From: Halichondria panicea
Lineage: Eukaryota; Porifera; Demospongiae; Suberitida; Halichondriidae
DNA: 64,000 bases
Direction of reading: 5' to 3'
NCBI RefSeq assembly: GCF_963675165.1
Contig: NC_087390.1
Span: 5,576,750-5,640,749, forward strand
Shown here in pieces: positions 36,344 to 63,578 of this stretch (its first letter is position 1; the number at the start of each line of letters is the position of its first letter). Made by a program: the position numbers and the translations under genes. The notes under the pieces were generated by a model that saw nothing but the letters and a program-made list of their open reading frames with translations, did no database searches and had not been told where the DNA came from.

Positions 36344-38149
36344 TTAAAGGAGGTTCATTAAAGCAATGATAAGTGTTAGGCAGATCAGCGTCGTGTTGCT
36401 GAGTGTAATAGATGCATCACTATGATAGTTTCGTACTTTGTCAGATACGGACCGTTGTCCTGATTTCAGTTTATTGGTATCGGTTTTGATATTTTCAACG
36501 TCCCGTTCCAAATCCGTTACTTTCTGTTGAGTGTTTGTAGCTTTCCCTCGCAAGTTTTCCAAGCGTGTACTTACTTGATCGATATCTCCGTTCAAATCTG
36601 TTCGCAGTCCCTGTAGCCTAGTGGTATGCATTTCGTTATTGTTATTAACGGTTGCCGTCAGTTGGGTGTGGTTTAGTCTCGCTTCAGCCGTTAAACTTCT
36701 TATCAGTCCATTATTTGCACTATATCGTTCCAAAAGATCGTTATTAACTCCGTGAATTAAATTTAAAAGTGTTTCAAATATAATTGTACCGTTTTCCCTG
36801 AGGGCAATTAGATCTGATTCTGTGTTATCCACTCTCTGTAAAAGTTCAATCTTTACTTGTTGAATGGAATCAATACTGGTGTTGCTCAGAAGGTCAATCA
36901 AATGTTCCACCTTTGTGAAATTATCTTGTGCAGAAAAGGCCAGTTGCCCCAGTTCATTTTTCAGATCTCTTTCTGTGCTGTTCAAGTTGTAAATGAGCAG
37001 CTTTATGCGTTCTTGAGTGGCTGATATACGTTCAGTAAGATTATTGTGAACAGTTTCCAAAGCGAGGTCATTCTGTGTGTCGTGCATCTCGAGTTGATTG
37101 TTTAAGTTGACAATGCTCTCTTGAAGCTCAATACTCAATGCCTGTAGCATACTGTTAACCTCATGGATGCTCTGTACTAGCCTATCCTCAGTGGCATTTA
37201 AAGAATGCTGTGTCTTGTCTAGCTTTAAGAGAAGGTGGTCTCGTAGCTCACTCGTTTCGTTCGCGATAAGTTCCTTAGTTAGAATATCTGTTTCTCTCAG
37301 TGCGGTAATGTTTTCTCGTGTTTCTGTGATGACAAATTCCAAATCAGCTCTCAATTGAACCTCAGTTGAATTGATTAAAGTTTTTAGAGAAGCTGTTTGC
37401 TCAGCAATATTGCTTGCCAAGGAATTTTGCAACGCTGTTAGTTCTGAACTTAATTCAATTACTCTAGCTCCCGTTTCATTAACATCATCTCTTAACTCTT
37501 CTAGATCCATTACTGTCTGAAGTTGCCTTTCTTCTAGTTGATGAACATTTCGGCGTAACTTATCAGTTTGTATCTGTGTCAAATTTTGCTGCTCACTGAG
37601 TTCACTTTTTGTCTCTCTCATTACCTCGTTTAATTGCTCAATCTGTTCTGTGCTGTCGTTGGCCTGAATAGAAAGCTGTGAGATTGCAAAACTTGTCTCG
37701 TTTTGAATTATTTCACTGCTTTCTTGAAAATCTCTGAATTGGGCACGTAGCACTTGAGTTTCCCCGTTTGTCATATTCTGCCGCAATTCTAAATCATCCA
37801 AACGATTGGAAAATGATTCGAGAGTTTTGTTAAATTCATCCAGAGGCAGTGAGAGACCTTCCTGAATACCTCGACTCACCTCAGTAGCGATGAATTTACG
37901 CACCGTAATCCAATCCTTATCAGTCAATGAGCCGTGTTTTGGTTGCGCCATGTTCTTCTGATACAAACTGCAGCTGTACCCGCTCATTGCAATAGCTATT
38001 ACAGCTAGTATGCCAATGATGACTGTGGCCCCCACCTGAAGAATCATGCAATTGCAACGACGATCTTTTCTTTTGCATTCAGTATCGTCCTTCTCATGAC
38101 CTTTATCATCATATTTGTCCTTAATTTCGCTCTCTTTTGATGCAGCCAT
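36344..38149 (-). CDS. Double-anchored coiled-coil membrane protein (tetherin-like topology), 601 aa
   Basis: Single exon. Residues 1-34 are a charged cytoplasmic tail, 35-57 a TM segment (VGATVIIGILAVIAIAM), and about 65-580 a nearly continuous coiled coil with about 20 N-x-S/T sites. The last 18 residues (TTLICLTLIIALMNLL end) are hydrophobic with no charged tail after them, as in a GPI-anchor signal; small residues just before it (SDAS) could be the attachment site. Both ends would thus be held in the membrane with the coil outside, as in vertebrate BST2, although sequence homology to BST2 is not evident. A weak internal periodicity (ELREN/LRDDVNET blocks) suggests growth by duplication. 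A perfect kappa-B decamer lies 145 bp upstream. It could instead be a secreted or structural coiled coil; the topology is prediction. Confidence 0.8.
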   Translation of the reverse strand: MAASKESEIKDKYDDKGHEKDDTECKRKDRRCNCMILQVGATVIIGILAVIAIAMSGYSCSLYQKNMAQPKHGSLTDKDWITVRKFIATEVSRGIQEGLSLPLDEFNKTLESFSNRLDDLELRQNMTNGETQVLRAQFRDFQESSEIIQNETSFAISQLSIQANDSTEQIEQLNEVMRETKSELSEQQNLTQIQTDKLRRNVHQLEERQLQTVMDLEELRDDVNETGARVIELSSELTALQNSLASNIAEQTASLKTLINSTEVQLRADLEFVITETRENITALRETDILTKELIANETSELRDHLLLKLDKTQHSLNATEDRLVQSIHEVNSMLQALSIELQESIVNLNNQLEMHDTQNDLALETVHNNLTERISATQERIKLLIYNLNSTERDLKNELGQLAFSAQDNFTKVEHLIDLLSNTSIDSIQQVKIELLQRVDNTESDLIALRENGTIIFETLLNLIHGVNNDLLERYSANNGLIRSLTAEARLNHTQLTATVNNNNEMHTTRLQGLRTDLNGDIDQVSTRLENLRGKATNTQQKVTDLERDVENIKTDTNKLKSGQRSVSDKVRNYHSDASITLSNTTLICLTLIIALMNLL

Positions 38150-38290
38150 GGTGTTGATTTTCTTGATCTCTATATAGACTAGCCACTAGTTAAAAACTGT
38201 AGACTTTAATAATGATGTGTGCACATTGAGCCTTCACTTTTATATGCAATATGCACTGCATGGCTAGCATACCAAGACTCAAGAGAGTCC

Positions 38291-38305
38291 CCTGGGACTT
38301 TCCCC
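38291..38305 (+). promoter_or_regulatory. Kappa-B site upstream of the 601-aa gene
   Basis: GGGACTTTCC (38,294-38,303), preceded by GAGTCCCCT, forms an imperfect palindrome. It lies about 145 bp upstream of the start codon at 38,149. GGGACTTTCC is a canonical NF-kappa-B decamer. The same arrangement precedes the next gene of the family. Confidence 0.6.
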
Positions 38306-38499
38306 ATTAATTGTTTGTGTTTGATTATTGCTTCATTTCCTTTGAAAGACTTGCGCAATTTTTGTGTGGGTAATTTTTTGGTAACCTTGAGGTGGGGTGA
38401 CCAAATGCTTTGGTAAGCAAGGAGCTGGTCTATAAAATGTTGTTTTAGTATTTCTGACAATAATATCTTAATTATGCACCTATGATTGCGAGTTAAAAT

Positions 38500-39190
38500 A
38501 ATGCATGAGGGTAAATTCACTGGCTTATATATAGCTAAAAGCATGAGCAAATGCATGAGGGTATTTACTAAAAGCAGGAGTACATTAAGAGGATGATCTA
38601 AACCAGTAGGAGCATGCATACCACGTCACTATCAGACCGCATCTTAAATAGGTGCGTAGGTGTAGTACACACGTGTGGTTTGTACCTCCAGCCCACATTT
38701 AATGTTATTCATGGCTAACAGTTTACACAACTACAAGCGTTAGTGACGTGTGCGTGGGAGTTGGATAATCCTCTCCTGCTAAAAGGTTAAGCATAGGGTA
38801 TTTAGAGGGTACAAATGGATGCATGAGGGTTTCATTAAAAGCATGAGGGTGTTTACTAACAGCATAAGGGTATTTTATTTACTAAAAGCATGAGGGTATT
38901 TACTAAAAGCATGAGGGTATTAACTAAAAGCATGAGGGTATTTACTAGCATGAGGGTATTAACTAAAAGCATGAGGGTATTAACTAAAAGCATGAGGGTA
39001 TTAACTAAAAGCATGAGGGTATTTACTAAAAGCATGAGGGTATTTACTAGCATGAGGGTATTTACTAAAAGCATGAGGGTATTTACTAGCGTATTTAGGA
39101 GGGTATTATTTTACTAGCATGAGGGTATTTAGGAGGGTATTTATATACTAACAGCATAAGGGTAACTACTAGCTATAGGGTATTTAGCAG
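38500..39190. repeat. Minisatellite, unit AGCATGAGGGTATTTACTAAA
   Basis: More than a dozen copies of a 21-bp unit, with 15-18 bp variants, are densest at 38,870-39,090. Because 21 is a multiple of three, both strands show open frames (for example MLLVNTL repeats), which are not genes. A lone inverted unit sits near 39,350-39,375. Confidence 0.9.
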
Positions 39191-40038
39191 CAAAAGCATG
39201 GGAAAGCATGCACGAGCCTCTATTCCATGCAGGCTGCATTCGAGGCTAGTAATCAGGAGATTTGTCTTTGATCCTGTGCGACACAGACAGTATATTCTTG
39301 GCATAACTGTATACCCAATCGATAATTACCCTTGCGCTTTCCTTGCATTTAGTAAATACCCTCATGCTTTTAGTACTTGAAGCTAACTTCCCACTACGTA
39401 CAACCCTTAATTCGAGATCAGGTCGTTCATTGGGGAGCGGTTGGTCATGAAGTGTTCGAATGTTTCTAGAACTCTAGGAATTTCATGAACTCTTCGAAGA
39501 TTAACCACAATTGGTCATGAATATGATTATGCTAGAACATTCTACAGAATTACAGAGAAGAAGGCATGCAACTTAGACTCAGCAAACTATTATTAGACAT
39601 TCTGCAGGTTTGACTTTGCCACTAGATCTAAATCCTATCTTGGATGATTACATGCATAAGCCTTGATACTAAGTTCGTGTTTACTATACTCATATTCATG
39701 ATCGATTATGGACGTCCTGTGCTGTTAATTATTGGTCCTTGGACCGAGTTCTACATTGGAAGTTGACATGCAGGACAAGTGTATGAATGGCCTGGCCTCA
39801 AGACTATAGGCTAACCCATCATGATGACTATAATAATTTATCTAGCCCAGCAACTGAGCATGGTCTCAAACAGGCAGCTCTCGAAGAGGTTTTATTACTG
39901 CGGAGTAGCTATAGTACCCTCATTTAAGACATTGTGAATTTGTTTACATGTATTCTTCAACTGCAAGAGCGTGATCTGTTTATTCTGTTTTTAATCATGT
40001 TGTCGTATAAATTTTACAACAAAAAATGCATGGCTGAT

Positions 40039-40908
40039 TTACAAGTAGACACACAACACAGTGACTAGTCCCACAACTAGTGAGTATTTGCTCATCAGTA
40101 CGACACCCGATGACAGTTCTAGCTCATGAACACGACTCTCCAGATTACTCAGGTCTGTCTCTACTTGATGCAGTTCTGATTTTGCTAGCGTGGAATTCTC
40201 AATCTCGTCAAACCTGTTTCCAACATCAATTCTGAAATTATCAATATCTGCTCGAATCTTCTCTGTTTGAATTTGCCGTTGTTCTAGTTGTGCTAGCGTG
40301 GAATTCTGAATCTCGTCAATTCTGTTTCCAACATCGTTTCTTAAATTGTCGACGTGTACTCGAATCTGCTCCTCCGTTTGATTTTGCCTTTGTTCTAGCT
40401 CATAGACATTTATAAGTAGCTCATCAATTTGTCTCTTTGTCGAATTTTGCTGTTCCACCATCTCTCTTATTACCTCGTTCAATCGTTCAATCTGTTCCCT
40501 GCTGTTATTTACCTGAATAGATAGCTGTAAAATCACATTCAGTGTGTTATTTTGGCTGCTCTCTCTGAAGTTATCTCGTAGCTCTTCATTGTTGAGTTCT
40601 AATTCAGCCAAACGATTCAATGTGAGATTGTTGTTGTATTCGTTCATGAAAGAGATTTGCTTATCAGGCAATGGGGTATTGTTTTGCTGCTGCCAATTTA
40701 CCACACTCATTACCAAAGCTGCAATGGCGATTAATGCAACAACTGCCACTCCCAGATACTTGAGACAATTTGTACTGCTGCTGCTGCAGCGTCCATGGCT
40801 TTTTTTGATATGCGTATCAGATGTAGATGTCTCTTGGTCGTTTGGTTTCACTTTATCGTAAGTGTCTTCAAAGTCACTCTCTTTAATATGTCCAGCCACA
40901 CCAGCCAT
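40039..40908 (-). CDS. Double-anchored coiled-coil membrane protein, 289 aa
   Basis: The ATG at 40,908 (ACTATGGCT) is preferred to one 24 codons upstream because the tail then matches the family: an acidic cytoplasmic segment with YDKV (YxxPhi type), a Cys/Ser patch, and a TM at residues 50-70 (LGVAVVALIAIAALVM). The ectodomain is coiled coil with about seven N-x-S/T sites and two copies of a unit ending NRxDEIxNSTLA. The C-terminus SKYSLVVGLVTVLCVYL is hydrophobic to the last residue, a likely GPI signal. It is identical to that of the gene at 45.4 kb, although the N-terminal halves differ. A head-to-head pair of kappa-B sites lies 145-168 bp upstream. Confidence 0.8.
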   Translation of the reverse strand: MAGVAGHIKESDFEDTYDKVKPNDQETSTSDTHIKKSHGRCSSSSTNCLKYLGVAVVALIAIAALVMSVVNWQQQNNTPLPDKQISFMNEYNNNLTLNRLAELELNNEELRDNFRESSQNNTLNVILQLSIQVNNSREQIERLNEVIREMVEQQNSTKRQIDELLINVYELEQRQNQTEEQIRVHVDNLRNDVGNRIDEIQNSTLAQLEQRQIQTEKIRADIDNFRIDVGNRFDEIENSTLAKSELHQVETDLSNLESRVHELELSSGVVLMSKYSLVVGLVTVLCVYL

Positions 40909-41051
40909 AGTGATAATCGATAATCTTGTTGGTTGAATTTGGAATTTGTATTCACACTGCAGGTATAACTGGTTGGGCAATAGCTTTGTGTTTGGTAGTT
41001 AAAATATGAAACTAGCACACTCTGATCTGGAAACTGCTGAAGCTTCTAGTT

Positions 41052-41076
41052 GGGGAGTTTCCCAGGGAAAGTCCCC
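41052..41076. promoter_or_regulatory. Inverted pair of kappa-B sites
   Basis: The plus strand has GGGGAGTTTCCC (41,052-41,063); two bases later the minus strand has GGGGACTTTCCC (41,065-41,076). Both fit GGGRNNYYCC, and the second contains the canonical GGGACTTTCC. The pair lies 145-168 bp upstream of the 289-aa gene. Confidence 0.65.
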
Positions 41077-41079
41077 ATT

Positions 41080-45427: not shown

Positions 45428-46093
45428 TTACAAGTAGACACACAACACAGTGACTAGTCCCACAACTAGTGAGTATTTGCTTATCAGTATGACACCCGAT
45501 GACAGCACGTTATCTATCTCATCAACACGACCCTCCAAATCACTCAGCTTTGTCTCCACGCCAAGCAGCTCCGATTTTGCTAGCGTGGAATTCTCAATAT
45601 CACTGAATCTGTTTGCAACGTCGTTCACAAAGCTGTCGATATTTGCTTGGATCTGTGCAAAATTACCCGAAGCATTGGTTTTCAAAGCGTTCAAATCAGA
45701 CGAAATTCGATTGAACTCAGCAGTCACGTTTTGCCTCAGGATATTCAGAGCGACTTCCACCTCGTGGTTGTTGGTACCGTTGAAAACCTCGATGACAGTA
45801 TTGGATTGTTGTTGAGCTTCTATCTCCACTTCAGCGAGCCTGATGTGGTTGGTAAGGTTACGATAGAGATTGAAGCCTGCTATACCAGCAAGACCGAGCA
45901 CTAGTGCAAACAGTAGCACAATCAGCAGCAGAGGTAGTGAGCACCTACAACACGATCTTTGCTTTAATGGTGGTTCTTCTTCTTCTTGGAATTGGTAGCT
46001 GCTAGGTCGTGCTACTGGTCGTGGTGTACGGCTTATGTCCGTTTTATCAGCTGCTTCATCAGCCATTTGATCAAAGTCATCGTACTCACTCAT
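45428..46093 (-). CDS. Double-anchored coiled-coil membrane protein, 221 aa
   Basis: Single exon. Residues 1-51 are an acidic then Pro/Arg-rich cytoplasmic tail ending in KQRSCCRCS, a possible palmitoylation patch. The TM is at 52-74 (LPLLLIVLLFALVLGLAGIAG). A short coiled-coil ectodomain follows with five or six N-x-S/T sites, then the C-terminal hydrophobic segment YSLVVGLVTVLCVYL. The 3' end, including about 90 bp of coding and the stop, is nearly identical to the gene at 40.0 kb, while the tail and TM are unrelated. That points to recombination or gene conversion between family members. A truncated copy of its first half lies at 50.2-50.5 kb. Confidence 0.8.
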   Translation of the reverse strand: MSEYDDFDQMADEAADKTDISRTPRPVARPSSYQFQEEEEPPLKQRSCCRCSLPLLLIVLLFALVLGLAGIAGFNLYRNLTNHIRLAEVEIEAQQQSNTVIEVFNGTNNHEVEVALNILRQNVTAEFNRISSDLNALKTNASGNFAQIQANIDSFVNDVANRFSDIENSTLAKSELLGVETKLSDLEGRVDEIDNVLSSGVILISKYSLVVGLVTVLCVYL

Positions 46094-46484: not shown

Positions 46485-48665
46485 TCACTTAGTGTAATAT
46501 CTGATCAATGCAAAGCATATAATTAGGAAGACGGCAAGCGCAGCTATAATACTTGCAAATGAAGCAACCGCACCTATTCCTGAGCTTTTTAAAGCATCGA
46601 CTTCATCCTCAAGATTGCTAATACTTGCACTGTGTTGACTCAGCAAGGCTGTCTTCGTATCTTGTGCACTCGCCACTTCATCAATTCTTTTGCTCAGATT
46701 TGTTCTTGCGTTGTTAGGTTCGTTAATGTTGCGAAGGACATCATCTCTAATGACATCCGTCCTCTCCCTCACCTCAGAAATATTTCTCGAAGTATCCACT
46801 CTTAGCTTCTCTATACTTGCACCCTGTAGTTGTACACTTGTATTCACTGCACGCAGCTGTGCCTCTAAAGCTAGTAGCTCACTCTCCGTTACGAATCTAG
46901 TAATGTTAGTTCCGAGGCCATATGCATCTCTTATTGTTGCATTGAGAATATTAATTTGATTTGAGTTTGCAGCAATGGCTTCTTGGGTCATCGCAAACTT
47001 TTGTCCTATGTCCCTGATGCTTGAGTTCAGTCGCTCCTCTTGTTCAGCTACCTTTCCATCCAGTGCAGCAAAACCCTCGGCTGTAGTTTCTTGAATCGTC
47101 TCCAACTTCTGTCCTATGTCTCTGATACTCGAGTTCAGTCGCTCTTCTTGTTTAACTACCTTTCCATCCTGTGCAGCAAAACCCTCGGCTGTAGTTTCTT
47201 GAATCGTCTCCAACTTCTGTTCTATTTCCCTGATGCTCGAGTTCAGTTGCTCCTCTTGTTCAGCTACCTTTCCATCCAGTGCAGCAAAACCCTCGGCTGT
47301 AGTTTCTTGAATCGTCTCCAACTTCTGTCCTATGTCTCTGATACTCGAGTTCAGTCGCTCTTCTTGTTCAGCTACCTTTCCAAAACCCTCGGCTGTAGTT
47401 TCTTGAATCGTCTCCAACTTCTGTCCCATGTCTCTGATACTCGAGTTCAGTCGCTCTTCTTGTTCAGCTACCTTTCCATCCAGTGCAGCAAAACCCTCGG
47501 CTGTAGTTTCTTGAATCGCCTCCAACTTCTGTCCTATGTCTCTGATACTCGAGTTCAGTCGCTCTTCTTGTTCAGCTACCTTTCTATCCAGTGCAGCAAA
47601 ACCCTCGGCTGTAGTTTCTTGAATCGTCTCCAACTTCTGTCCTATGTTCCTGATGCTCGAGTTCAGTCGCTCTTCTTGTTCAGCTACCTTTCCATCCAGT
47701 GTAGCAAAAGCCTCGACAGTAGCTTCTTGAATCATCTCCAACTTCTGTCCTATGTCTCTGATGCTCGAGTTCAGTCGCTCCTCTTGTTCAGCTACCTTTC
47801 CATCTAGTGCAGCGAAACCCTCGGCAGTAGCTTCTTGAATCGTCTCCAACTTCTGTCCTATGTCTCTGATACTCGAGTTCAGTCGCTCCTCTTGTTCAGC
47901 TACCTTTCCATCCAGTGCAGCAAAACCCTTGGCTGTAGTTTCTTGAATCGTCTCCAACTTCTGTCCTATGTCCCTGATGCTCGAGTTCAGTTACTCTTCT
48001 TGTTCAGCTACCTTTCCATCCAGTGCAGCAAAAGCCTCGGCAGTAGCTTCTTGAATCGTCTCCAACTTCTGGCCTGTGTCTCTGATGCTCGAGTTCAGTC
48101 GCTCTTTTTGTTCAGCTACCTTTCTATCCAGTGAAGCGAAACCATCGGCATTGGTTTCTATTTCCTCACGATTCTGCATAGTTTGATTTGCTTGATTAGT
48201 CTGAGAATACTGAAGCTGTGCCTCTTGCTTAGTATAGTTGGTTTGCAATTCTGAAAACCTGTTGTTCAGATCGGAAATGTTTTGTTGTAAAGCCTCCAGT
48301 TGTTGAAATACCTCCACTGCTGTACCCGTGCCTCTTGAATTATTCTCTAGATGTTCAAGCCTTTGATTAAATTTTGTGGCAATTACCACAATTGAAATTC
48401 CAATTCCCACAACAAGCACAACAGCCACAACAGCTACTTTGAAAGTAGTACCCTTCAGCAATTTCTTGCAATCTCCACACCCTGGAGCTTTATTGGGTTT
48501 GCTTACATCCTTTCTTCCAACAGCTTTGTCGGGATCGATACATTCTTTCTCACTTGCTGCAGCTTTATTGGGCTCACTACCTTGGCTATTAGCTGTATTG
48601 TTCGAGGGTACTCCAATTGTACTAGCAAGAGTACTATCCAAAATGTTTATACCATCATTTGACAT
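46485..48665 (-). pseudogene. Long coiled-coil double-TM protein with 36-residue repeats and one in-frame stop
   Basis: One frame of 727 codons from ATG at 48,665 to the stop at 46,485, broken only by TAA at 47,991-47,993 (codon 225). Sibling repeats have CGA (Arg) at that place. The tail is 75 residues with several PNKA motifs, and the TM is at 76-97 (VAVVAVVLVVGIGISIVVIA). The ectodomain holds about 11 tandem units of 36 residues, with LNSSIRDIGQKLETIQE and GFAALDGKVAEQEE as the two halves. The N-x-S site in LNSS is kept in nearly every unit. One unit lacks four residues. The C-terminus is a second TM (ASIIAALAVFLIICFALI) with a short RYYTK tail, not a GPI signal. The long intact frame means the stop is recent, polymorphic or an assembly error. 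The antisense frame with FLFSYLSIQCSKTLG repeats is a shadow. Confidence 0.75.
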
Positions 48666-49391: not shown

Positions 49392-49985
49392 ATCCATAAT
49401 CTCCATAGCTATTCTTTTCGTCCTTTTTTCTTACAATTGTGCCAGTCTTCTCTGAGTTTAGCCTTGACTCTTTTTTGTAGTTTATATAATTATACCACAC
49501 TTATGTCACCACAAATTGATCTCATTGGTCAACAGCTATATATCAGGATATATAGAATATTAGCATACAGCCCCAGGCATGCACAGTTTTTCAAGTTGTT
49601 TTTTAGTTTTTTCATTTGTTCAAGAAAGTAAGCAAAGAGAAAAGAGCCATGCTTGACGGTACTAAGACTCAAAGCGACGGCAGAAACAGGGAAGGTGCTC
49701 TCCAACAAGATGGCTAAGCTTCCATGGGTCCATGGGCGCGGTTTAGATACATTTTATCCAAGAGCTTGCAACTCCAGTAATAAGGGACGTTGAATGGTCA
49801 ACGCTAATTGGACCAAGGAAGCTCTTGAGCATCTGTAGGAGTCAACATGTTGCTCAACTAGCTCTTTGACGGCTGCAAATTTTGGCATAGTCTTGTTCTT
49901 TTTTGCAGTCTGCATCGTGATTGAATTGTTGCTAGGGGGAGGTCCTTTTATAGTGCTGCGGTCACGTGGTATAAGTCAGATATGT

Positions 49986-50112
49986 CACACCTACTCGGAG
50001 GATATGCACCCTATATATCCTCCGCTAGCGTGGTTACATACCCCTTGGCTCCGCCTCGGAGTAACCACGGTAGCGGAGGATATATGGGTGCATATCCTCC
50101 TCTTAGGTGTGG
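49986..50112. mobile_element. Palindromic MITE, about 127 bp
   Basis: Arms ACACCTACTCGGAGGATATG and CATATCCTCCTCTTAGGTGT, with a GGTTAC...GTAACC core. It sits inside the duplicated upstream block; the related blocks at 52.65 and 58.38 kb lack it. Relative at 34,131-34,272. Confidence 0.75.
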
Positions 50113-50166: not shown

Positions 50167-50520
50167 CAGACGAAGTTCGATTGAACTCAGCTGTCACGTT
50201 TTGCCTCAGGATATTTAGAGCGACTTCCAGTTAGTTGCTGGCACCGTTGAAAACCTCGATGACAGTATTGGATTGTTGTTGAGCTTCTATCTCCACTTCA
50301 GCGAGCCTGATGTGGTTGGTAAGGTTACGATAGAGATTGAAGCCAGCTATACCAGCAAGACCGAGCACTAGTGCAAACAGTAGTACAATCAGTAGCAGAG
50401 GTAGTGAGCATCTACAACACGACCTTTGCTTTAATGGTGGTTCTTCTTCTTCTTGGAACTGGTAGCTGCTAGGTCGTGCTACTGGTCGTGGTGTACGGCT
50501 TATATCCGTTTTATATATGA
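50167..50520 (-). pseudogene. Truncated copy of the 221-aa gene
   Basis: The minus strand encodes DISRTPRPVARPSSYQFQ, the same TM (LPLLLIVLLFALVLGLAG) and ectodomain down to EVFNGASN, then a stop. Beyond it, LRQNVTAEFNR is still visible in the flank. It lacks both the first 18 codons and the C-terminal half of the gene at 45.4 kb. Identity is very high, so the duplication is recent. Confidence 0.8.
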
Positions 50521-50659
50521 ATCTCATTGACACATTAAATGTGTATGTGGGAACAAGGATTTTAAACAATAATTGACAAACAAGCACCAATTTTTGTGGT
50601 ATACATAATTATGAATCATAACTGTTACTTATAGGGATCGACTCTTAATTGCTCTTGTG

Positions 50660-52535
50660 TCACTTCGAACAGAATATCCAACCAACCACTGCAATAATAA
50701 TGAGCACAGCGAATCCAATAGTAGCAAATGTAACCGCACCTATCCCAAGACTTTTTAAATAAATAGATTCGCTTTCAAGATCGCTAACTTTCGCACTGTG
50801 TTGGCTCAGCAAGGCTGTGTTTGTGTCCTGTTTAGTTTCCACTTCATCTATTCTTCTGTTCAGACTTGTTCTTGCATCGTTAAGTTCGTTAGTGTTGCGA
50901 ATGACATCATCTCCAATGACATCGAGTGAGTCTTGTGTCCTCTCTCTCACCTCAGAAATATTTCTCGAAGTATCCACTCTTAGTTTCTCTATACTTGCAC
51001 CCTGTAGTTGTACACTTGTATTCACTGAACGCAGCTGTGCTTCTAGTAGCTCACTGTTCATTATGAATCTAGTAATGTTAGTTTCGAGGTCGTATGCATC
51101 TCTTATCGTTGCAATGAGGATATTAATTTGATTTGTGTTTGCAGCAATGGCTTCTTGGATCATCTCAAACTGTTGTCCTATGTCCTTGATGCTTGAGTTC
51201 AGTCGCTCTTCTTGTTCAGCTACTGTTCCATGCAGTGCAGCAAAAGCCTCGGCTGTAGCTTCTTGAATCGTCTCAAACTTTTGTGCTGTGTCCCTGATGC
51301 TCGAGTTCACTATCTCCTCTTGTTCAGTTAACTTTCCATCCTGTGCAGCGAAAGCCTCAGCAGTAGCTTCTTGAATCGTTTCAAACTTTTGTGCTGTGTC
51401 CCTGATGCTAGAGTTCACTCTCTCTTCTTGTTCGTCCACCTTCTCATCCAGTGCAGCGAAACCCTCGGCAATCCTTGTTATTTGCTCACGATTCACCACT
51501 ATTTTATTTCCTTGATTCGTTTGAGCAGTTCCAAGAGACTGTAGCTGTGCTTCTTGTATCTTGTCTTTGGCTTGCAATGCTAAAACCTTGCTGCTCAAAT
51601 CAGAAATATTTCGTTGGATAGTCTCCAGCTTTTGAATGTCAATTTTCAATGTTGCACATCTGCAATTTGGGTTATTCTGTAGATTATCAATCCTTTGCAC
51701 TAATTGGTTTGACTTCTGTTCTTGAAGTACTACGAAAGCAGTAACTACACCTATGCATACAGCTACAGTGGCGTAGCCAGAGGGGGGCAGAGGGTTCTCC
51801 AGCACCCCCCTCTGGCCTCAGACTCTGCTCCACAAGTTCATTTTACTAACTAGCTAGCTGATATGAGATCGAGAGTAACTAGAGCTCTATCAACTCAAAA
51901 CTCCACCTCTAACTATCTAGCTCCACCTCCAAATATTCATTCCAGTCAGTGCACATGCGCAAAGCCACGTGCTGAGCAGACCAAGGTCCCCCACAGAGTT
52001 GCAGACTGTTAATGTTCAGCAGCTATCACCATCATCATCATGAGTATTTTTCCGTTGAGCCCAGTTCACAGAGCAGCACTGCAACTGCAAGTGGCTTGCC
52101 ACCCTGTCCTGCTAATTCACAAGCAGAACCTGGTTAGCAGCTGCATGATTTAATTGTCACAACTCAAAACAATGCATTTTATAGGACATCTTCAAATGAA
52201 GATGTGGCTTAACCACCAGTACCCTCAAAGTAGCAGTACCCTCATTTCTTTAGCCAGATTGCGTTAGAATCAATCTCAGAGCATGTAACAACAAAAATTT
52301 TCTGGGGGAGTGCCCCCACCCCCATTGGTAATAAGCACCCCCCTATCTCAAATCCTTGCTACGCCCCTGAGCTATGAACAATAATAATATTATAACCACT
52401 ATGACGACAATCTCAAACCATTTGCTCTTCAACCGGGTTTTTGTAGTTTGGCTACCACCATTGCTACTACGTGTACTACTATCTGCAGCTGTACTGTCCT
52501 CGTCTTCCCCGCACGTTTTTTTTTTCAGAATCCAT
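50660..52535 (-). pseudogene. Coiled-coil double-TM family gene interrupted by a transposon
   Basis: The 3' part (50,660-51,765) is open: end of TM1 (CIGVVTAFVVLQEQ), Cys-containing NCRCATLKIDIQKL, three 36-residue repeats (VNSSIRDTAQKFETIQEATA), a region near-identical to the gene at 46.5 kb (VQLQGASIEKLRVDTSRNIS), and a C-terminal TM (ATIGFAVLIIIAVVGWIFCSK). The 5' part lies at 52,370-52,535 and codes CGEDEDSTAADSSTRSS and the start of TM1 (WFEIVVIVVIILLLFIA). The 604-bp element at 51,766-52,369 separates them exactly inside TM1, and the frames agree across it once one AGCTA duplication is discounted. In addition a run of ten A after the start puts the ATG out of frame by one base. A short frame beginning within the element (MLENPLPPSGYA) could give a TM-poor product but is probably not native. 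Confidence 0.8.
51766..52369. mobile_element. CAGTGGCGTA-type element in TM1 coding sequence, 604 bp
   Basis: The ends CAGTGGCGTAGC and TTGCTACGCCCCTG are flanked by AGCTA (51,761-51,765; 52,370-52,374). There is no clear transposase. End type and 5-bp duplication match the elements at 8.3 and 28.0 kb. Confidence 0.85.
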
Positions 52536-52849: not shown

Positions 52850-53147
52850 GCTTTCTTATGTTATTGGCTTGTAATGCTGAAAATTAATGTTGCTCAAGTC
52901 AGATACGTTTCTTTGTAAGTTGTTGAATGTCGATTTTCAACATTGCACATGTGCAATTTGTATATAGATGTTCAATATTTTGCTCTAGTTGGTTTAATTG
53001 ACCTCCGTGCTTGAAAACAATACTATGCATGAAGCTGTAAACACTTACAGTATAGCAACCACACATACATAGAACTGTGACTATGACAATCTTACTCTGA
53101 AACAAGGTTTCTTTGCTACTAGTATCATTATCGTATCCATCGATCAT
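52850..53147 (-). pseudogene. N-terminal fragment of a coiled-coil family gene
   Basis: From ATG 53,147 (MIDGYDNDTSSK) it encodes a TM segment (IVIVTVLCMCGCYTVSVYSF) and LNQLEQNIEHLYTNCTCAML, which parallels LVQRIDNLQ...CRCATLKIDIQ of the gene at 50.7-52.5 kb. A frameshift follows KIDIQQLTK; RNVSDLSN continues in the next frame and then decays. A TTTTTCCCAGGTACAATCCC relic of the upstream module is at 53,395. Confidence 0.7.
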
Positions 53148-53675
53148 AATTACGAATTCACATCCTCAAACTCCAAGCATATTCTTTTTGTCTGGTTTAT
53201 TTTGACATGGATCAAATATCGGCTAGTTGATAGTTGTCGATCACTTGTCACAGTGTTCTCAGATTTTCTATGAAGTGTGTATCTGGTCAACTTGAGTAGA
53301 TTCATTTGGTTTGGCCTACTAATATTCACGGTGAGGTTAAAGGTCGTGCATTGTGACCTGTACATTCCAGTTGCCTTGTTTACACTAAATAATTGGTTTT
53401 TCCCAGGTACAATCCCTTGTTGCCCAGTGATTGGGCAGATATCAAAGCAATCCAGTGCTCTGTATCTGGCATGTTGCACTGTGCTGGGCAATAACTAAAA
53501 CTTGCAGATTGCTGACTCACTGTAAACACTTCACATTACACAACTACAATTATTATATACTAGGTAGTACTTATACGTACTATGATTGATGCAATATAAG
53601 GTAATCAGACAATGAAAGTTAATAGTCACACTGCAACTTATACACAGCAGACATAAAGTTAATTGGTGCACATAA

Positions 53676-55031
53676 TTATAAGTCAAAATACTTAGTTAAC
53701 AATAAACAACACGAAGTAAATAATGCAATTATAAAAGTGCTTCCAATGTCTCTAGACCCTGAGGACCGAACACTTTCTAGTAGTCTATTGAATCTTTGGT
53801 CATGTGCATTAGTTTGCTCTGTTAGGGAGACTTGCTTTCCCTCAATCTGTGTTACTTTCCTATCATGATAATCAAGACGCTTACCTTGTGACTCAATTTT
53901 TGCTTTAATTGTTTCGATCTCTCTGTTCTGACTATCAATACTCGTAGCGAAATGTGTGTTCTGTTTATTCAACTTTTCAATTCGATCGTAAATGTCTTTC
54001 GTGTTCTGTTTTGTTCTGCTCACTTTCTTGGAAAGATCATCAATGTTCTTTCTGAGCTCTTTGTCAGTCACTGATTTCTCTGATTTCAATTTGTCTACTC
54101 TTTTGACAATGGCTTCAAGTCGAGCTTCATCATTAGCCATCTGTGTTTTCAGCTCTTGAAGCAAAACACTATTTTCTCGAGTTTTGACTTTCAGTTCTTT
54201 AAAACCAGTCGTAAGCGATTGTATTTTGTCCTTTGCTGAGGTAAGAGTCAGTTCCATTTGTTTGCTTTTAGTGGAGAGTTCGCTGACTTTGGCTTCAGTA
54301 TTATTGTGAGTTTCTGTAAGTTTTTGGTCAAGAGAATCAATTAATTTGTTGATATGCATTGTCAGATTCATCACAGTTGAATTTTGTTGCTGTTTAATCT
54401 CATTTATCAACAGCTCAAACTTCGCATCTGTCTGTTTTTGGATTTTTTCCCCCACTGCGTCAAGAGCCAGCTCCATTTGTTTGGAGAGTTCGCTGACTTT
54501 GGCTCGAGTACTGTTGTGGATTTCTGTAAGTTTTTGGTCAAGAGAATCGATCGATTTGTCAATATGCATTGTCAGATTCATCACAGTTGAGTTTTGTTGC
54601 TGTTTAAGTTTGGTTACCATTAGCAACATTCGCTCATACTTCGCATCAGTCTGCTTTTGGTGTTCTCTCAAATCTATCATTTTAAGCCTCATTGCATCAT
54701 TCTCAATTGCTTGGGTAGCATTTGCTTTCACAATCGTTTCTTTTAAACTATTGTGCGCTTCACGTGACCTGACTTCACTCATCACGAAGAATACTACCAC
54801 AGATACTAGCACAGTTGCTGCAGCTATTCCAGCTATTTCTCTTCGATTAAGATTCTGCAACTTGTTAAAAAATCGCTTCTTGTCCACTGCAAATTTTTTG
54901 CATTGGGTCCACATTGATTTCTGTTCTTTTTGCTCAGATTCCTTGTCTTCCATTACAAAAGTGAGCTCTCCATTGCTAGTGTTCTCCGTGTCAGAGAGTG
55001 TCAGCTTAGTGTAGTCAGTAGCTTGAGTCAT
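53676..55031 (-). CDS. Double-anchored coiled-coil membrane protein (MTQATDYTKL subfamily), 451 aa
   Basis: Single exon; it is the only full-length, undisrupted member of this subfamily in the window. The cytoplasmic tail (1-65) starts MTQATDYTKL, where YTKL is a YxxPhi-type sorting motif, and is rich in Glu/Lys. The TM is at 66-84 (IAGIAAATVLVSVVVFFVM). The ectodomain is one long coiled coil with two copies of a block containing KQQQNSTVMNLTMHI and many N-x-S/T sites. The C-terminus has small residues (RSSGSRD) followed by a hydrophobic stretch (STFIIALFTSCCLLL), a likely GPI signal although it ends KYFDL. Four damaged or shortened paralogues follow at 56.2, 58.7, 60.5 and 63.1 kb. Tethering between membranes or between cells is inferred from topology alone. 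Confidence 0.85.
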   Translation of the reverse strand: MTQATDYTKLTLSDTENTSNGELTFVMEDKESEQKEQKSMWTQCKKFAVDKKRFFNKLQNLNRREIAGIAAATVLVSVVVFFVMSEVRSREAHNSLKETIVKANATQAIENDAMRLKMIDLREHQKQTDAKYERMLLMVTKLKQQQNSTVMNLTMHIDKSIDSLDQKLTEIHNSTRAKVSELSKQMELALDAVGEKIQKQTDAKFELLINEIKQQQNSTVMNLTMHINKLIDSLDQKLTETHNNTEAKVSELSTKSKQMELTLTSAKDKIQSLTTGFKELKVKTRENSVLLQELKTQMANDEARLEAIVKRVDKLKSEKSVTDKELRKNIDDLSKKVSRTKQNTKDIYDRIEKLNKQNTHFATSIDSQNREIETIKAKIESQGKRLDYHDRKVTQIEGKQVSLTEQTNAHDQRFNRLLESVRSSGSRDIGSTFIIALFTSCCLLLTKYFDL

Positions 55032-55099
55032 TTTGAGTGGCTATATATATGTTTGCTAGTCAAAAATCACAGTGAATGGTTTAATGCAACCTGTTGTAA

Positions 55100-57234: not shown

Positions 57235-57295
57235 TTTAAATGGCTATAATTATTCTTGCTAGTCAACTATCACACTGTACAGATGCATGCTGTAG

Positions 57296-57769: not shown

Positions 57770-58480
57770 TGTCTTATGACTCATGTCTATAATTCATGAA
57801 TCAGTGTACATTTACGTCACCACTATTATTGATAACAGCCGTATATAGAAAAATAACATACATGCAAGCCCAGGCGTGCAGTTTTCATTTCATTTGTTCA
57901 AGAAAGTAAGCAAACAAAAAGAAGCCATGCTTGACGGTATACTATAAAACTCTAAAGTGACGGCAGAAACACAGAAGCTGCTCTCCAACAAGATAAGCCT
58001 CAATGGGACCATGGGCGTGGTTTAGATACATTTTAGCCAAGAAGAGCTTGCAACTGCAGCCGAATGTCCAACGCTTGGACCAAAAAAGCTCCTGAGCATC
58101 TATATGCACGGCGTTTTTCCCCTTTATGACGTCTATAAAACAAGCAGAACTTCAGAACCACGATATATCAGGTGGAGTGAGGATTGAAGACCCTCACATC
58201 AAAATAATCACAAAAAATTAATAAGCACATTGCTGCGTGTTACCCAAAAACTTCTTGCTTTGATGTTGAGTCTAGCATTCGGTATTACTATTGCAGCTGT
58301 ATTTTTCTCGTCTTTCCCATATGTTTCCTTTTCAGAATTCATCTCCATATTCAGTTTTTCAGTGTTATATACGAAGTGCTTAGGTATATATTGGTTTAGT
58401 TCATGATTAAAAAGCTACGATTAGTATATAATATAGTTATATATAGTTACAAATAGGGGGTTTCCCAGGTACAGTCCCTG
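57770..58480. repeat. Duplicated upstream block of the coiled-coil family
   Basis: Shares long stretches with 49,500-50,150 (GCATGCTTGACGGTA, CGGCAGAAACA, TGGTTTAGATACATTTTA, AAAGCTC.TGAGCATCT). At 58,260-58,342 it contains an orphan start (ATGAATTCTGAAAAGG on the minus strand) of a family gene. GGGGTTTCCC (58,457-58,466) with the AGGTACAGTCCC half-palindrome lies about 115 bp upstream of that start. No open gene remains. Confidence 0.65.
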
Positions 58481-58688
58481 TTAAAGTGTGTACATAATCT
58501 ATATCTATACTCCAGCATTGTGATACACAGTGTGTAAGTAGGTTGTACTTCATATTCTGTAGGTAATTTTTCTACGTAGGCTATTTAATAGTGGTCATGC
58601 TTTTTATTTTTTTATTTTATTAGACTCTGTCAAATTCGCACAACAATTAAGCATACAATAACATAATTATATAGACCAACAAAACAAG

Positions 58689-59983
58689 TTAATAACGAAC
58701 ACAAAGTAAATAATGGATGCAAAGCATAATTATTAGCAAAGTTATGCTTCCAGTGTCACTAGACCCTGCATGAGGACCTCACACTTTCTAGTAGTATATT
58801 GACTATCTGGTCATGTACATTAGTTTGCTCTGTTAGGGAGACTTGCTCTCCCTCGATCTGTGTGATTTTATTATCATGATGATCAAGACGTTTACCTTGT
58901 GACTCAATTTTTGCTTTAATTGTTTCAATCTCTCTGTTTTGACTATCAATACTCGTAGCTATGTTTTTATTTAGGTTTTCAACTCGATCGTAAAGGTCTT
59001 TCGTGTTCTGTTTTGTTCTGTCCACTTTCTTCAAAAAATCATTGATGTTCTTTCTGAGCTCTTTGTCAGTCACTGATTTCTCTGATTTCAATTCGTCTAC
59101 TCTTTTGACAATGGCTTCAAGTCGAGCTTCATCATTAACCATCTGTGTTTTCAGCTCTTGAAGCAAATCACTATTTTCTCGAGTTTTGGTTTCCAGTTTT
59201 CTAAAACTAGTCCTAAGCGATTGTATTTTGTCATTTGCTGAGGTAAGAGTCAGTTCCATTTGCTTGCTTTTAGTGGAGAGTTCTCTGACTTTGGCTCGAG
59301 TATTACTGTGAATTTCTGCAAGTTTTTGGTAAAGAGAATCAATCGATTTGTCGATACGCATTGTCAGATTCATCACAGTTGATTTTTGTTGCTGTTTAAC
59401 CAATAGCCTAAACTTTGAATCAGTCTTTTGGATTTTATTCTCCACTGCGGTAACAGTCAGTTCCATTTGCTTGCTTTTAGTAGAGAGTTTGCTGACTTTG
59501 GCTCAAGTATTGCTGTGAATTTCTGCAGGTTTTTGGTAAAGAGAATCAATCGATTTGTCGATATGCATTGTCAGATTTACTGCAGTTGATTTTTGTTGCT
59601 GTTTAAGCTCAGTTAACATTAATACCACTAGCTGATACTTCGCTCTCAAATCTTCCATTTCAAGCCTCGTTGCATCATTATCAATTGCTTGAGTAGCACT
59701 TGCTTTCACAATCGTTTCTTTCAAAGTATCATGCACTTCACGTGACGAGACTAGACTCATTACGATTAGCAAGATTAGCAAGATGATTCCTAATAACACA
59801 GTAGCAATTCCAGCAATTCCAAGATTCTTCTTGTTACAAAAATTGCTTGCATTGGGTCGACTTTGATTTCTGTTTTTTGGGTTTAGTTTTCTTGTCTTCC
59901 ATCACAAGAGTGGTGTACTCTCCATTTCTAGTGTTCTCCATGTCAGAGATTGGCACCTTAGAGTATTTAGTAACTTGAGTCAT
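58689..59983 (-). pseudogene. MTQATDYTKL subfamily member, several lesions
   Basis: From ATG 59,983 the tail reads MTQVTKYSKVPISDMENTRN. A stop and frame change fall after CKQFL (about 59,840). The correct frame then shows TM (GIAGIATVLLGIILLILLIV) and coiled coil. TGA replaces CGA near 59,503 (SNT*AKVSKL), the frame runs on to RSS near 58,770, and an ATGC insertion then shifts the frame within the C-terminal anchor (SDTGSITLLIIMLCIHYLLC, stop at 58,689). The ectodomain is very close to that of the 451-aa gene and retains a tandem duplicate of the KSTxxNLTM block. Confidence 0.8.
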
Positions 59984-60055
59984 TTTGTGTGGCTATGTTT
60001 GCTAGTCAACTATCACAGTCCAAAATTAATGGTTTAATTTAACTGTTGTCTGTCA

Positions 60056-60084
60056 GCTTATATAAGCCATCGGATATTCCCCCT
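60056..60084 (-). promoter_or_regulatory. Conserved TATA-CCAAT-like promoter module
   Basis: Minus strand: GGGGGAATATCCGATGGCTT then ATATAAGC, about 75 bp before the ATG at 59,983. One base of the CCAAT box differs (CCGAT). Confidence 0.5.
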
Positions 60085-60476
60085 TGGCTGACACAGCCAA
60101 ATTCCACGCGTATACCTCGCTTGCGCATTCGCACCGAGGCATAATAATTGTTACTCATGCCTGGTACTAGTGCAGACTTCTCCCAGGCCACTTGTGCATG
60201 AATCACATGAACCGATTAGTGGGCCATCGTAGGGCTATATATACATAGGCTGAGCTGTAGCATCATTGTCTGTCAATGTGGAGCCCAAGAGTGCAATGTT
60301 GTGAAATCAATAATCATATTCACAGACAATTTGCACAACTCAACAAACAATAAACAGCTTTTAAACCAATACTAGCACTAATATATTTCCAATCAAACAG
60401 TTTGACTCAGTGACGCATGGTTAGGTTCTAAATGCATATATGCTACGCCTGTACACCATTTTGACCACACATGTGG

Positions 60477-61019
60477 TTATTCGTATAAACTTTCAAGCTC
60501 TGTATCAACTCTTTCAACTCGAAGGTGAGGGTAGTTTGTGTTCTGGTCTGTTGCATTCATTTCTTTAGAGAGATTGTTGATGTTCTTACGCTTTTCGTCT
60601 CCTTTACATTTCAATTCGTCTACTCTTTTGACAGTGTGCTCATTGACAAGCTGAGTTGCATTGTTAGCTCCCTGTGTTTCCAGCTGATGAAACGAATCAC
60701 AGGAAATCTTAGAAGAGATGTTTTGTCGACTCATGCTGACTTCTTGCTGTGAAGAAACCTCAGTTGTATTTGGCTGAAGCTTTGCATTATAGACTGCACT
60801 CACCACAAATAGCAAAAATATTACTACTGTAGCTATTCCAGCTAGCCGATTAAAGTTTTGCACCTTGTTAAGAAATTGCTTCATAGCATCCATTGCAAGT
60901 CGCTTGAATTGGGATATCTGTTCTGATTCCTTGTCTTCCATTACAAGAATGATATGATCCAGCTCTCCATTGCTAGTGTTCTCCCTAGTCAGCTTAGTGT
61001 AGTCAGTAGCTTGAGTCAT
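60477..61019 (-). CDS. Short MTQATDYTKL subfamily protein, 180 aa, no C-terminal anchor
   Basis: Open frame with the family tail (MTQATDYTKLTRENTSNGEL), a TM at about 58-78 (LAGIATVVIFLLFVVSAVYN) and a short ectodomain with several N-x-S/T sites (NTTEVSS, RQNISS, NNATQL, MNATDQN). It stops at RVDTELESLYE, the point at which the gene at 56.2 kb continues into the rest of its coil, so there is no second anchor. The member at 63.1 kb ends at the same codon context. If expressed it would be a single-pass type II protein; it could also be a truncated relic. Confidence 0.6.
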   Translation of the reverse strand: MTQATDYTKLTRENTSNGELDHIILVMEDKESEQISQFKRLAMDAMKQFLNKVQNFNRLAGIATVVIFLLFVVSAVYNAKLQPNTTEVSSQQEVSMSRQNISSKISCDSFHQLETQGANNATQLVNEHTVKRVDELKCKGDEKRKNINNLSKEMNATDQNTNYPHLRVERVDTELESLYE

Positions 61020-61144
61020 TTTGAGTAGCTATCTCTTATTCTATGATGATAATGGTATGGTGTAGGCATGCTGTGGTTGTTGATAATAATTATTATAAGT
61101 ATATTCAATGGCTGACAAAAGCAAAGATTGGGCTGTCTGTAATC

Positions 61145-61190
61145 AGTGGACTGGACTACTGGACTGGACTGGACTGGACTGGACTTTGAC
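61145..61190. repeat. GGACT pentanucleotide repeat
   Basis: About seven interrupted copies of (A/T)GGACT just upstream of the 180-aa gene. The rest of 61,020-62,930 shows no supported gene: CCCCCCTGGCC-type TE debris at 62,650 and the tandem duplication at 62.3 kb. Confidence 0.75.
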
Positions 61191-62267
61191 TTGACTATTG
61201 CGACACCAATTACATTCCTTTTCCTCATAACAAGACTACAATGACAAATGATTGTAAAAACTTAACACATGTACATCTAGCTACATTACAAAACACAAAA
61301 AAATGAATGCTTGTCTTTAGGTTTGCATGATGGAAGAGCATGTTTAGCTTTCTGTATAGGAGGACAGGTAACTGGCCTAGCTGGTTGAGACCATAATGCA
61401 TTCTTGCTTAATTACTAGCAATGTACTGCATAACTTATGGGTATATAAATGCCACAATTTATTGTAATACTAAAACAAGTGATTGAGCCCCCAAAAATGT
61501 ATAGCTAGTATCTAACAGCTATGTAGTGCTATTCCCATTCTACTGTTAATAATTATATTCACGACATACAAGTTAATTCCTGTAAATTGGGGTCACATGA
61601 TACTAGCTTAGCTTTCCATTTTTCAAATTCCAAGCGCGAGGGCGGCCTGAGAATTGTCTAGAGCGGGGAAGTACTTGTTTGATTTGTCATGTGATATTCT
61701 ACAAAGCTGGACAACATCACGCGAGCAGAAAACATTGCTGAGTCAGGTAAGTTTTTTTACATGAAGAAGTTATCAATGTATAAAAATACATCGACTAAAT
61801 TACTATAGTTACTGCATGAAATAGGAGTGTTTAGCTTCCCAGTATAACTGCTTCAAGTGGCTTGCCTGCATGCATGTGTTGCTGCAACTGAGCTGCTGAT
61901 ATAGACAGTCGCATTTAGGCTGCATGGATATACAGTTCTGTGACACATAGCTCACAAAACTATGGAATCTCAAGGATATAGCTTCATTCAGCTGTGGTGC
62001 AAAGGCTAATTGCAAAGCCTCTCCCTTCCATTTATTAATAGGTCGATTTTCACCCCCAAATTAGGAGAAAAATTGGTTTGGAATGAGGCAGAATTCAATC
62101 TTGTTACATAACGATTAACGTGACAAGACTTGTGTGAAGTACTTCCCTCATTGTCCAAAGTCCAGTTGATACCATCTTCAAAGGAAGTGCGGCCTGTGGG
62201 TGATCGAGGCTAGCATGTGTAGTACTTTTTTATGAAAGATGAAGGTTTTTTAACGAATGACATGCAA

Positions 62268-62355
62268 TTCCTTCATTATCATGTACAGCTAAGCTGCATG
62301 GTAAAGGCCAATTCATTCATTATCATGTACAGCTAAGCTGCATGGTAAAGGCCTT
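62268..62355. repeat. Tandem duplication, unit about 45 bp
   Basis: TTCATTATCATGTACAGCTA and AGCTGCATGGTAAAGGCC occur twice in direct orientation. The GCTAAGCTG..TAAAGG element with GGAGTAACTTAA recurs upstream of several family genes (55.2, 57.45, 63.8 kb), so this is a stray copy of that upstream region. Confidence 0.75.
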
Positions 62356-63104
62356 TAATGGAGCAACTTAAGATTGATGGAGTAACTTAAAATGTTTCTG
62401 CACCTCCTCCTAATAGTATAATTATAGAATGTTCGCTCTAGCTCTTGTCTCTCAGTTGACATTAGGGTTCGTGTTTTAATTGTTAGTTGGCATGCCGTAA
62501 CGCATCAACCTGGACTAGAAACACAATGCAGATAACATAAACAAGTTAGAGTGTACTTCTCGTCTGTGAACTGACAATATAGATCCACAGACATCGTCGT
62601 GTCATGCTTATGCAAATCTTTTGTCCATAATTCAGTGGGGGGACTCAGAGGCTTGAGCACCCCCCCTGGCCTGCATGGCCTCACAGACAACAACCATAAC
62701 TTATTATCAGAACTGGTCTAGCTATAACTGCAGCTCTATATCGTATTCTGTATGCACACTATATACACTTGTAACGCAATGCTGGCTCTAGCCTCATTCC
62801 CAATTCAAGTCAATTTTCTAGAAAGACCCCAGCCTGTCTAAATTGCATTACACAACAACAGACACAAATCAGCAATAAATCTGATAAAACAATCAGTATA
62901 ATGCTAACTACAATTTAATCGTAAAGTTATGGTTCACATTTCTATTTGACCTAATAGTCCTTGAGTCTATGGCCATGAGCATTAGTTTTCTCTGTTAAGG
63001 TAGACTTGTTTTTCATCTGTTTCAGTTTGATTTTATTATCATGATAATCAAGACGACTCATTTTTTGCTATAAATGTTTCAATTTCTTTGTTTTAACCAT
63101 GTTG

Positions 63105-63578
63105 CTATTCGTATAAATTTTCGAGCTCTTTATCGACTCTTTCAAATCGTTTGTGAGGGTATTTTGTGTTCTGGTCTGTTCTGTTCACCTCTTTAGAGAG
63201 ATCCTTACGCTTTTCGTCTGTATTAGATTTCAATTCGTCAACATTTTTGACAGTGTGCTCAAGTCGAGTTGCATTGTTAGCTACCTGTGTTTCCAGCTGA
63301 TGAAACGAACCAATTCCAGTCTGATTATGGTAGTCATTGAATTTCTCTCTCAAAGCAGCTTCAGTGTGCACTTCACTTGAAGAGACTGCACTTATTACTA
63401 ACACAGTTACTAACACCGTTACTGCAGCTATTCCAGCTATTTTTCTTCGATTATTCTGCACCTTGTTACATTCAGATTCCTTGTCTTCCATTACAAGAAT
63501 GACATGCTCCAGCTCTCCATTGCTAGTGTTCTCCCTATCAGAGAGTGTCAGCTTAGTGTAGTCAGTAGCTTGAGTCAT
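63105..63578 (-). CDS. Short MTQATDYTKL subfamily protein, 157 aa, decayed 3' remainder
   Basis: Family tail (MTQATDYTKLTLSDRENTSN), a TM at about 47-67 (IAGIAAVTVLVTVLVISAVS) and a short ectodomain ending FERVDKELENLYE. Downstream (62,940-63,104) the former coding sequence is recognisable on the minus strand (KEIETFIAKNES, RLDYHDNK, TLTEKTNAHGHRL) but full of stops and frame changes. The C-terminal anchor is thus lost, and about 70 ectodomain residues are missing internally relative to the 451-aa gene. Possibly still expressed as a type II protein; equally it may be a pseudogene. Confidence 0.6.
   Translation of the reverse strand: MTQATDYTKLTLSDRENTSNGELEHVILVMEDKESECNKVQNNRRKIAGIAAVTVLVTVLVISAVSSSEVHTEAALREKFNDYHNQTGIGSFHQLETQVANNATRLEHTVKNVDELKSNTDEKRKDLSKEVNRTDQNTKYPHKRFERVDKELENLYE

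Follow-up and report, generated by a model that had tools for sequence, protein, structure and literature searches.

Background

In vertebrates the gene for tetherin, BST2, occupies a syntenic position between CILP2 and PLVAP. Tetherin, an antiviral protein, has an unusual topology and has been described from vertebrates (PMC3715405, PMC10617486); it inserts pairs of transmembrane (TM) or glycosylphosphatidylinositol (GPI) ends into the particle that it traps, and an artificial protein without homology reproduces the activity, so that the configuration suffices (PMC3715405). Since activity depends on configuration and not on sequence, non-vertebrate relatives or analogues are unreachable by sequence search. 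BST2, TMCC(aT) and PLVAP are adjacent type II coiled-coil genes, not all of which encode a second hydrophobic anchor at the C-terminus, and losses from this cluster are on record in birds (PMC10617486). Myotis bats have five tetherin genes, BST2 having been locally amplified with structural variation of its coiled-coil ectodomain (PMC9599465). Here we analyse a tandem array of genes for putative double-anchored coiled-coil proteins in the sponge Halichondria panicea, first noticed in a window of 64,000 nucleotides (the whole stretch of DNA analysed; positions 5576750–5640749 of contig C14, in a genome of 131.5 Mb and 39 contigs).

The BST2-TMCC(aT)-PLVAP trio is the closest known arrangement to the sponge cluster: in each, adjoining genes for type II TM and coiled-coil proteins differ in whether a second anchor is present, and in the vertebrate trio some genes are missing from certain lineages. 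The two differ in number (three genes against a total of about 16 copies in the sponge) and in neighbours (CILP2 and PLVAP against Notch-ligand-like EGF genes), and no sequence relation was found between them. Compared with BST2 itself, the sponge proteins are predicted from their sequences to have the same succession of an N-terminal tail (with a putative tyrosine motif in some members), a TM, an N-glycosylated parallel coiled-coil ectodomain and a second anchor at the C-terminus, and here too the plan is conserved while sequence conservation is low. They differ from it in giving no match to the BST2 family PF16716, in ectodomains of 130–600 aa, longer than that of BST2, in the lack of dimerising ectodomain cysteines in the A and G groups defined below, in the C-terminal TM and basic tail that replace a GPI signal in some members, and in being encoded by single-exon genes in so many copies. 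The Myotis tetherins share the local amplification with varied coiled-coil ectodomains; these, however, are true BST2 orthologues under positive selection, whereas no positive selection was detected in the sponge cluster. By sequence and by cysteines the cluster is not of the BST2 family, and by analogy it appears to encode proteins of the tetherin kind that arose convergently, differing in their larger copy number, their longer rods and the existence of two types of second anchor. An earlier note, made from the letters of the window, had known of no description of such an array, which holds for this array, since no such cluster was described for sponges or other invertebrates in the literature searched (most subscription journals lying outside it); the vertebrate cluster is nevertheless comparable (PMC10617486).

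A tandem array with a shared plan

The genes are intronless and all lie on the minus strand of the window. They share one plan, in which a cytoplasmic tail is followed by a TM helix, a long N-glycosylatable ectodomain of heptad repeats and a hydrophobic extreme C-terminus. They lie at the coordinates given in the earlier note, and four of them are intact single-exon open reading frames (ORFs). H1 (36344..38149) encodes 601 aa, with a TM at residues 35–53, a 529-aa ectodomain containing 16 N-glycosylation sequons and a GPI-like C-terminus SDASITLSNTTLICLTLIIALMNLL; G1 (40039..40908) encodes 289 aa, with the motif YDKV in its tail, a TM at 52–70 and a GPI-like C-terminus SSGVVLMSKYSLVVGLVTVLCVYL; G2 (45428..46093) encodes 221 aa, with a cysteine-rich juxtamembrane segment (RSCCRCS), a TM at 53–71 and a C-terminal block almost identical to that of G1; and A1 (53676..55031) encodes 451 aa, with a tail beginning MTQATDYTKL, a TM at 66–84, a long helical ectodomain and the C-terminus SSGSRDIGSTFIIALFTSCCLLLTKYFDL, which may be a GPI signal or a TM. 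A fifth intact member, A2 (C14 5659774–5661096, outside the window), is 89% identical to A1. Both anchors are present in about seven window members, two of them with a stop codon and one with an inserted element; the earlier count of at least eight genes with the full plan was thus too high, as members E and F have no C-terminal anchor and D1 stops before it.

With five members as queries, no relatives were found anywhere in the genome outside C14 5613–5677 kb, and the cluster therefore reaches about 36 kb beyond the end of the window. The block from A to F was duplicated as one unit together with its neighbours. No relatives of A1 were found in viral contigs and none of H1 in prokaryote genomes, in searches sensitive to close relatives only. 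We consider it likely that these genes form an array of dual-anchored coiled-coil surface proteins, anchored at both ends. With reasonable confidence we also favour the more specific view of a young local cluster of type II surface or endosomal proteins, with an N-terminal TM and a heptad-repeat, N-glycosylatable rod, whose complete members carry a GPI signal or a TM at the C-terminus.

Predicted membrane topology and coiled-coil rod

The N-terminal TM lies near the start of the members, has a hydropathy of 2.3–3.3 and is followed by the sequons, pointing to an N-in, type II orientation. In every member with an intact N-terminus, lysine plus arginine is higher on the inside (N-terminal side) than on the outside of this TM, in agreement with the positive-inside rule. 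All ectodomains hold roughly twice as many sequons as expected, with 16 observed against 8.1 expected in H1, 8 against 3.1 in G1, 20 against 5.2 in B1, 10 against 3.9 in B3 and about 7 against 3.6 in A1 and A2, and there are 0–1 per cytoplasmic tail; the enrichment is significant at P < 0.005 in H1, G1, B1 and B3. The rods are about 130–600 residues long, almost without prolines, and their heptad periodicity has z scores of 2.8–19 in all double-anchored members. An AlphaFold2 model of A1, built from a three-sequence alignment, contains helices at 73–317 and 324–423 and a separate C-terminal helix at 429–450.

The second anchor was scored as the best 15-residue mean hydropathy within the last 30 residues. 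This score is 1.89–3.59 in every member possessing the segment. Of 356 other ORF ends in the region 7% attain 2.0, and ectodomain windows stay at or below 1.3; because such a segment is seen in three unrelated groups of sequences, chance is an unlikely explanation. We also mutated one copy neutrally in simulation, by the number of changes separating it from another, and compared hydropathy. By this comparison the N-terminal TMs have stayed hydrophobic in five of six pairs (P = 0.0008–0.012), as have the C-terminal TMs in B pairs (P = 0.0002–0.011). The C-termini of H1, G1, G2 and C1 are built like a textbook GPI signal, with small residues (SDA, SSG), a short polar spacer and 14–15 hydrophobic residues to the end, making GPI anchoring plausible for the 36.3, 40.0 and 45.4 kb members; the 53.7 kb member, which the earlier note also listed as GPI-like, is ambiguous, since A1 and A2 end in TKYFDL (A1: ...CCLLLTKYFDL) and the K and D in this tail would suit either GPI or a short-tailed TM. 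The members at 46.5 and 50.7 kb, for which the earlier note gave a TM with short tail, do end in this way, as do B members generally; the tail is basic, and B members would therefore be two-pass proteins.

Tyrosine motifs of the YxxPhi type occur as YTKL or YSKV in the A group and as YDKV in G1, the motifs YTKL and YDKV having been reported before; G2 has YDDF, and H1 and the B members have none. In the A-group tails YxxPhi is retained even where its residues differ. Cysteines are absent from the ectodomains of G1, G2, A1, A2, C2 and B1; H1 has one beside the TM, and a CxC stalk is found in B2 and B3 only. Cytoplasmic juxtamembrane cysteines of H1, G1, G2, B1 and A1 would suit palmitoylation.

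Several points weigh against double anchoring and a role common to all members, chief among them that the assignment of GPI and TM anchors draws on hydropathy and simple rules. The C-ends of A, C and D gave the weakest results against the neutral simulation (P = 0.02–0.24), and sequon enrichment is at P = 0.03–0.07 in the A copies, C2, G2, B2 and E1, being marginal (about 0.05–0.07) in single members of the A, C and G2 kind, and at 0.13 in F1. The AlphaFold2 model of A1 has a mean predicted local distance difference test (pLDDT) score of 67 and a predicted template modelling (pTM) score of 0.33 from only three sequences, and that of H1, with a mean pLDDT of 49, is uninformative. Finally, a common function for the three groups would follow only from their plan and location, there being no detectable homology between them.

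Sequence groups and relation to known families

The members fall by blastp into three groups (H/G, B and A/C/D/E/F) without significant similarity across groups. Over about 90 residues H and G are 49% identical (E = 3e-10), H1 also matches G1 at 49% identity over about 108 aa, and the best match across groups is A2-G1 (E = 0.012). What they have in common is therefore a plan and not a recognisable sequence family. An hmmscan of ten members found no match to PF16716, in line with the earlier note, which had claimed no homology to BST2; a search of the genome with the same model was likewise negative, although no positive control responded, so that absence elsewhere in the genome does not follow.

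No Pfam family, Protein Data Bank (PDB) sequence or PDB fold was found for the cluster proteins except generic coiled coils, and thus no clear homology to an ordinary structural family. The Pfam matches (DUF1664, Rod_CreS, Vps27_GAT-like and others) are of generic coiled-coil or repeat type and mostly under cut-off, those above it in B1 being produced by the 36-aa repeats of that protein. Sequence searches of the PDB were negative for H1 and A1 and gave only coils for G2, and Foldseek gave only generic coiled coils, all at E > 0.01. Residues 334–393 of A1 have a 60-residue ungapped similarity to the SNARE motif of SNAP-25, including IDSQNR (E = 1e-4 with a three-sequence profile); as the best of 177,635 sequences, with Z about 4.5 against heptad-preserving shuffles, it was rejected as not significant. 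The Pfam SNARE model matches neither A1 nor anything else in the cluster, and unlike the SNAP-25 motif the A1 segment is predicted to be extracellular.

Duplication, copy exchange and gene loss

The cluster appears young, is locally duplicated and, as the earlier note had said, is marked by recent losses: B1, B2, B3, C1, D1, D2 and a copy at 50.2 kb are all broken, leaving no intact B gene. B1 (46485..48662; about 725 codons) has about ten coiled-coil repeats of 36 aa (108 bp) and a C-terminal TM with the basic tail IRYYTK, and is open apart from a single in-frame TAA near 47991. B2 (50660..51817), with the CxC stalk, three 36-aa repeats and a C-terminal TM, is a pseudogene in which the N-terminal TM is split by an insertion and the tail upstream of the insertion is frameshifted. 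The inserted repetitive element (51766..52369, strand unassigned) has inverted ends CAGGGGCGTAGC...GCTACGCCACTG and at least 40 copies genome-wide; as these are up to 99% identical, it has been recently active. C1 (56162..57234) contains one TAA and one frameshift and has a GPI-like end VTGSIHWLMMFALPIYLLCVGY; its better-kept copy C2 (C14 5664105–5665187, outside the window) is open, with an altered and longer hydrophobic end. D1 (58759..59901) contains one TGA and terminates in SSCRV ahead of the anchor, and its broken copy D2 (C14 5666686–5668233, outside the window) terminates in SITLLIIMLCIHYLLCVRY. B3 (C14 5662583–5663722, also outside) contains one TAG, and the 50.2-kb pseudogene (50231..50581, TAA at 50231–50233) is a truncated copy of the 5' part of G2, 94% identical to it.

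Four of these members are otherwise long open, each with a single stop of C-to-T type in a Gln or Arg codon (TAA in B1, TAG in B3, TAA within 56162–57067 in C1 and TGA in D1). We considered RNA editing or recoding at these in-frame stops and preferred ordinary loss, because among nonsense changes the C-to-T type is the one most expected where coding sequence is rich in Gln; the four are probably ordinary nonsense mutations. Truncation took a different form in E1 (60477..61019, 180 aa) and F1 (63105..63578, 157 aa), type II proteins that retain tail and TM while the ectodomain ends after about 100 residues. Both have copies outside the window (E2, near-identical to E1, and F2). E and F stop at the same aligned position (LYE-stop), so the truncated single-anchor form was itself duplicated.

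Ratios of nonsynonymous to synonymous divergence (dN/dS) are below one in A1-C2 (0.38, P = 1.7e-10), A1-A2 (0.44), G1-G2 (0.44, P = 5e-6), B1-B2 (0.49, P = 2e-7) and B2-B3 (0.53, P = 8.5e-5). Neither C1-C2 (0.88) nor E1-F1 (0.74) can be separated from neutral, and the 6 nonsynonymous and 0 synonymous changes of E1-E2 are not significant. No pair tested had significant dN > dS, so that the arms race suggested in the earlier note is unsupported. Between A1 and C2 conservation is highest in the opening 45 codons of the tail (dN/dS 0.20). In the A and B groups the ectodomain is least divergent and the anchors most divergent, and in the A group the rod contains internal duplications. Divergence varies from segment to segment: in A2 the TM segment is nearest to the D copies while the remainder of its ectodomain is 95–99% A1, the C-terminal anchors of G1 and G2 have no synonymous difference and the rest is saturated, and the anchors of B2 and B3 have a dS of about 1.26 against 0.18 in the adjoining ectodomain. 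This pattern is compatible with gene conversion among copies.

Possible functions

In the mechanism that we propose, the rods would self-associate in parallel and both rod ends would be embedded in membrane. One possibility is then a loop lying on a single membrane, where it would organise or space the surface; alternatively the molecule might bridge two membranes, a budding vesicle or particle being held by one end. The YxxPhi motif of the A-group tail may carry the protein through endocytosis. Particle tethering is no more likely than a role in spacing or organising the cell surface, because ectodomain cysteines are lacking in the A and G groups, the rods exceed that of BST2 in length and vary widely, and positive selection was not seen. 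Organisation of microdomains and adhesion are further alternatives to tethering.

We think it quite possible that the proteins are surface organisers or spacers, with both ends in one membrane and the rods forming a glycosylated mesh or the spacers of microvilli or cell contacts, the expansion reflecting neutral drift in copy number. PLVAP, for its part, builds diaphragms. The selection seen is purifying, rod length varies through the 36-aa repeats of B and the internal duplications of A, N-glycosylation sites are distributed along the rod, and losses without apparent replacement suggest redundancy; however, the conserved cytoplasmic tail of A1 and C2 is not obviously needed by a purely structural protein.

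Particle tethering as the main role is possible but seems to us rather unlikely. As an analogy the tetherin topology proposed by the earlier note holds (type II TM, glycosylatable coiled-coil rod, second C-terminal anchor), while its anti-particle part found no support. A tetherin-like restriction system, in which parallel double-anchored rods would enter budding enveloped particles or extracellular vesicles, hold them at the surface and internalise them via YxxPhi, with copies and losses arising from viral conflict, is unlikely in this full form. Its parts stand in the same order as in BST2, the configuration is what tetherin activity depends on (PMC3715405), YxxPhi is kept in the A tail (YTKL against YSKV), and recent losses and duplications are many; it has against it the missing cysteines for covalent dimers in A and G, rods of some 130–600 residues, the lack of dN > dS, and the fair chance of a YxxPhi arising in a 50-aa tail. 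Still more tentative is the idea that a non-vertebrate animal independently evolved a tetherin-type array in which three or more lineages without sequence relationship, all at one locus, would physically hold enveloped particles or vesicles at the surface. The cluster is nonetheless a concrete candidate for convergent evolution of the tetherin configuration, for which intact genes are available; E and F offer natural truncated single-anchor controls and the B copies a different second anchor. If tethering were true, the prevalence of topology-based restriction would become a directly testable question.

It is improbable that the locus is mostly a decaying cluster, in which a small number of ancestral genes for type II coiled-coil proteins left many pseudogenes and the hydrophobic C-terminal ends are chance or relic features without an anchoring role. 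The many broken and truncated copies and the ratios of C1-C2 and E1-F1, inseparable from neutral, would fit such decay, yet H1, G1, G2, A1 and A2 are intact, and hydrophobic ends resist neutral decay in three unrelated groups. Least probable are self/non-self or adhesion ligands, with rods in individual-specific combinations pairing between cells, for although the array is tandem, shows mosaic exchange between copies (as in A2) and adjoins Notch-ligand-like MNNL/EGF genes, the ectodomain is not hypervariable and in the A and B groups is where divergence is lowest.

Repeats and neighbouring genes

The 108-bp repeats of the B genes lie at 46996–48149 and 51150–51470, with an NSS sequon in each, and their number, from about two to ten between paralogues, constitutes a natural series of rod lengths. 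A B-like N-terminal fragment (52899..53165, minus strand) is duplicated at C14 about 5658.5 kb.

The neighbours examined comprise Notch-ligand-like MNNL/EGF genes, a RecQ-like helicase ORF and transposon remnants. An architecture of MNNL (Notch-ligand N-terminal), EGF and DSL domains is animal-specific. Tandem Notch-ligand-like genes (MNNL, multiple EGF, TM and a tail with repeated NPIYG motifs) occupy C14 5640.7–5688.7 kb, interleaved with the coiled-coil cluster, between and after its copies, and duplicated along with it; their DSL regions are degenerate. About 20 more places with DSL domains are found elsewhere in the genome, several of them clustered at C2 2043–2083 kb.

Duplicated genes carrying the 14-residue repeat QRDQRPPQEEQEAA lie at 29825–30505 and 34697–35179 (minus strand), together with 35278–35562; they have no Pfam match, and an adjoining exon encodes a hydrophobic double TM and, after it, a basic stretch. 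A long inverted repeat at 49950–50110, GAGGATATGCACCC...GGGTGCATATCCTC, is a probable small inverted-repeat element.

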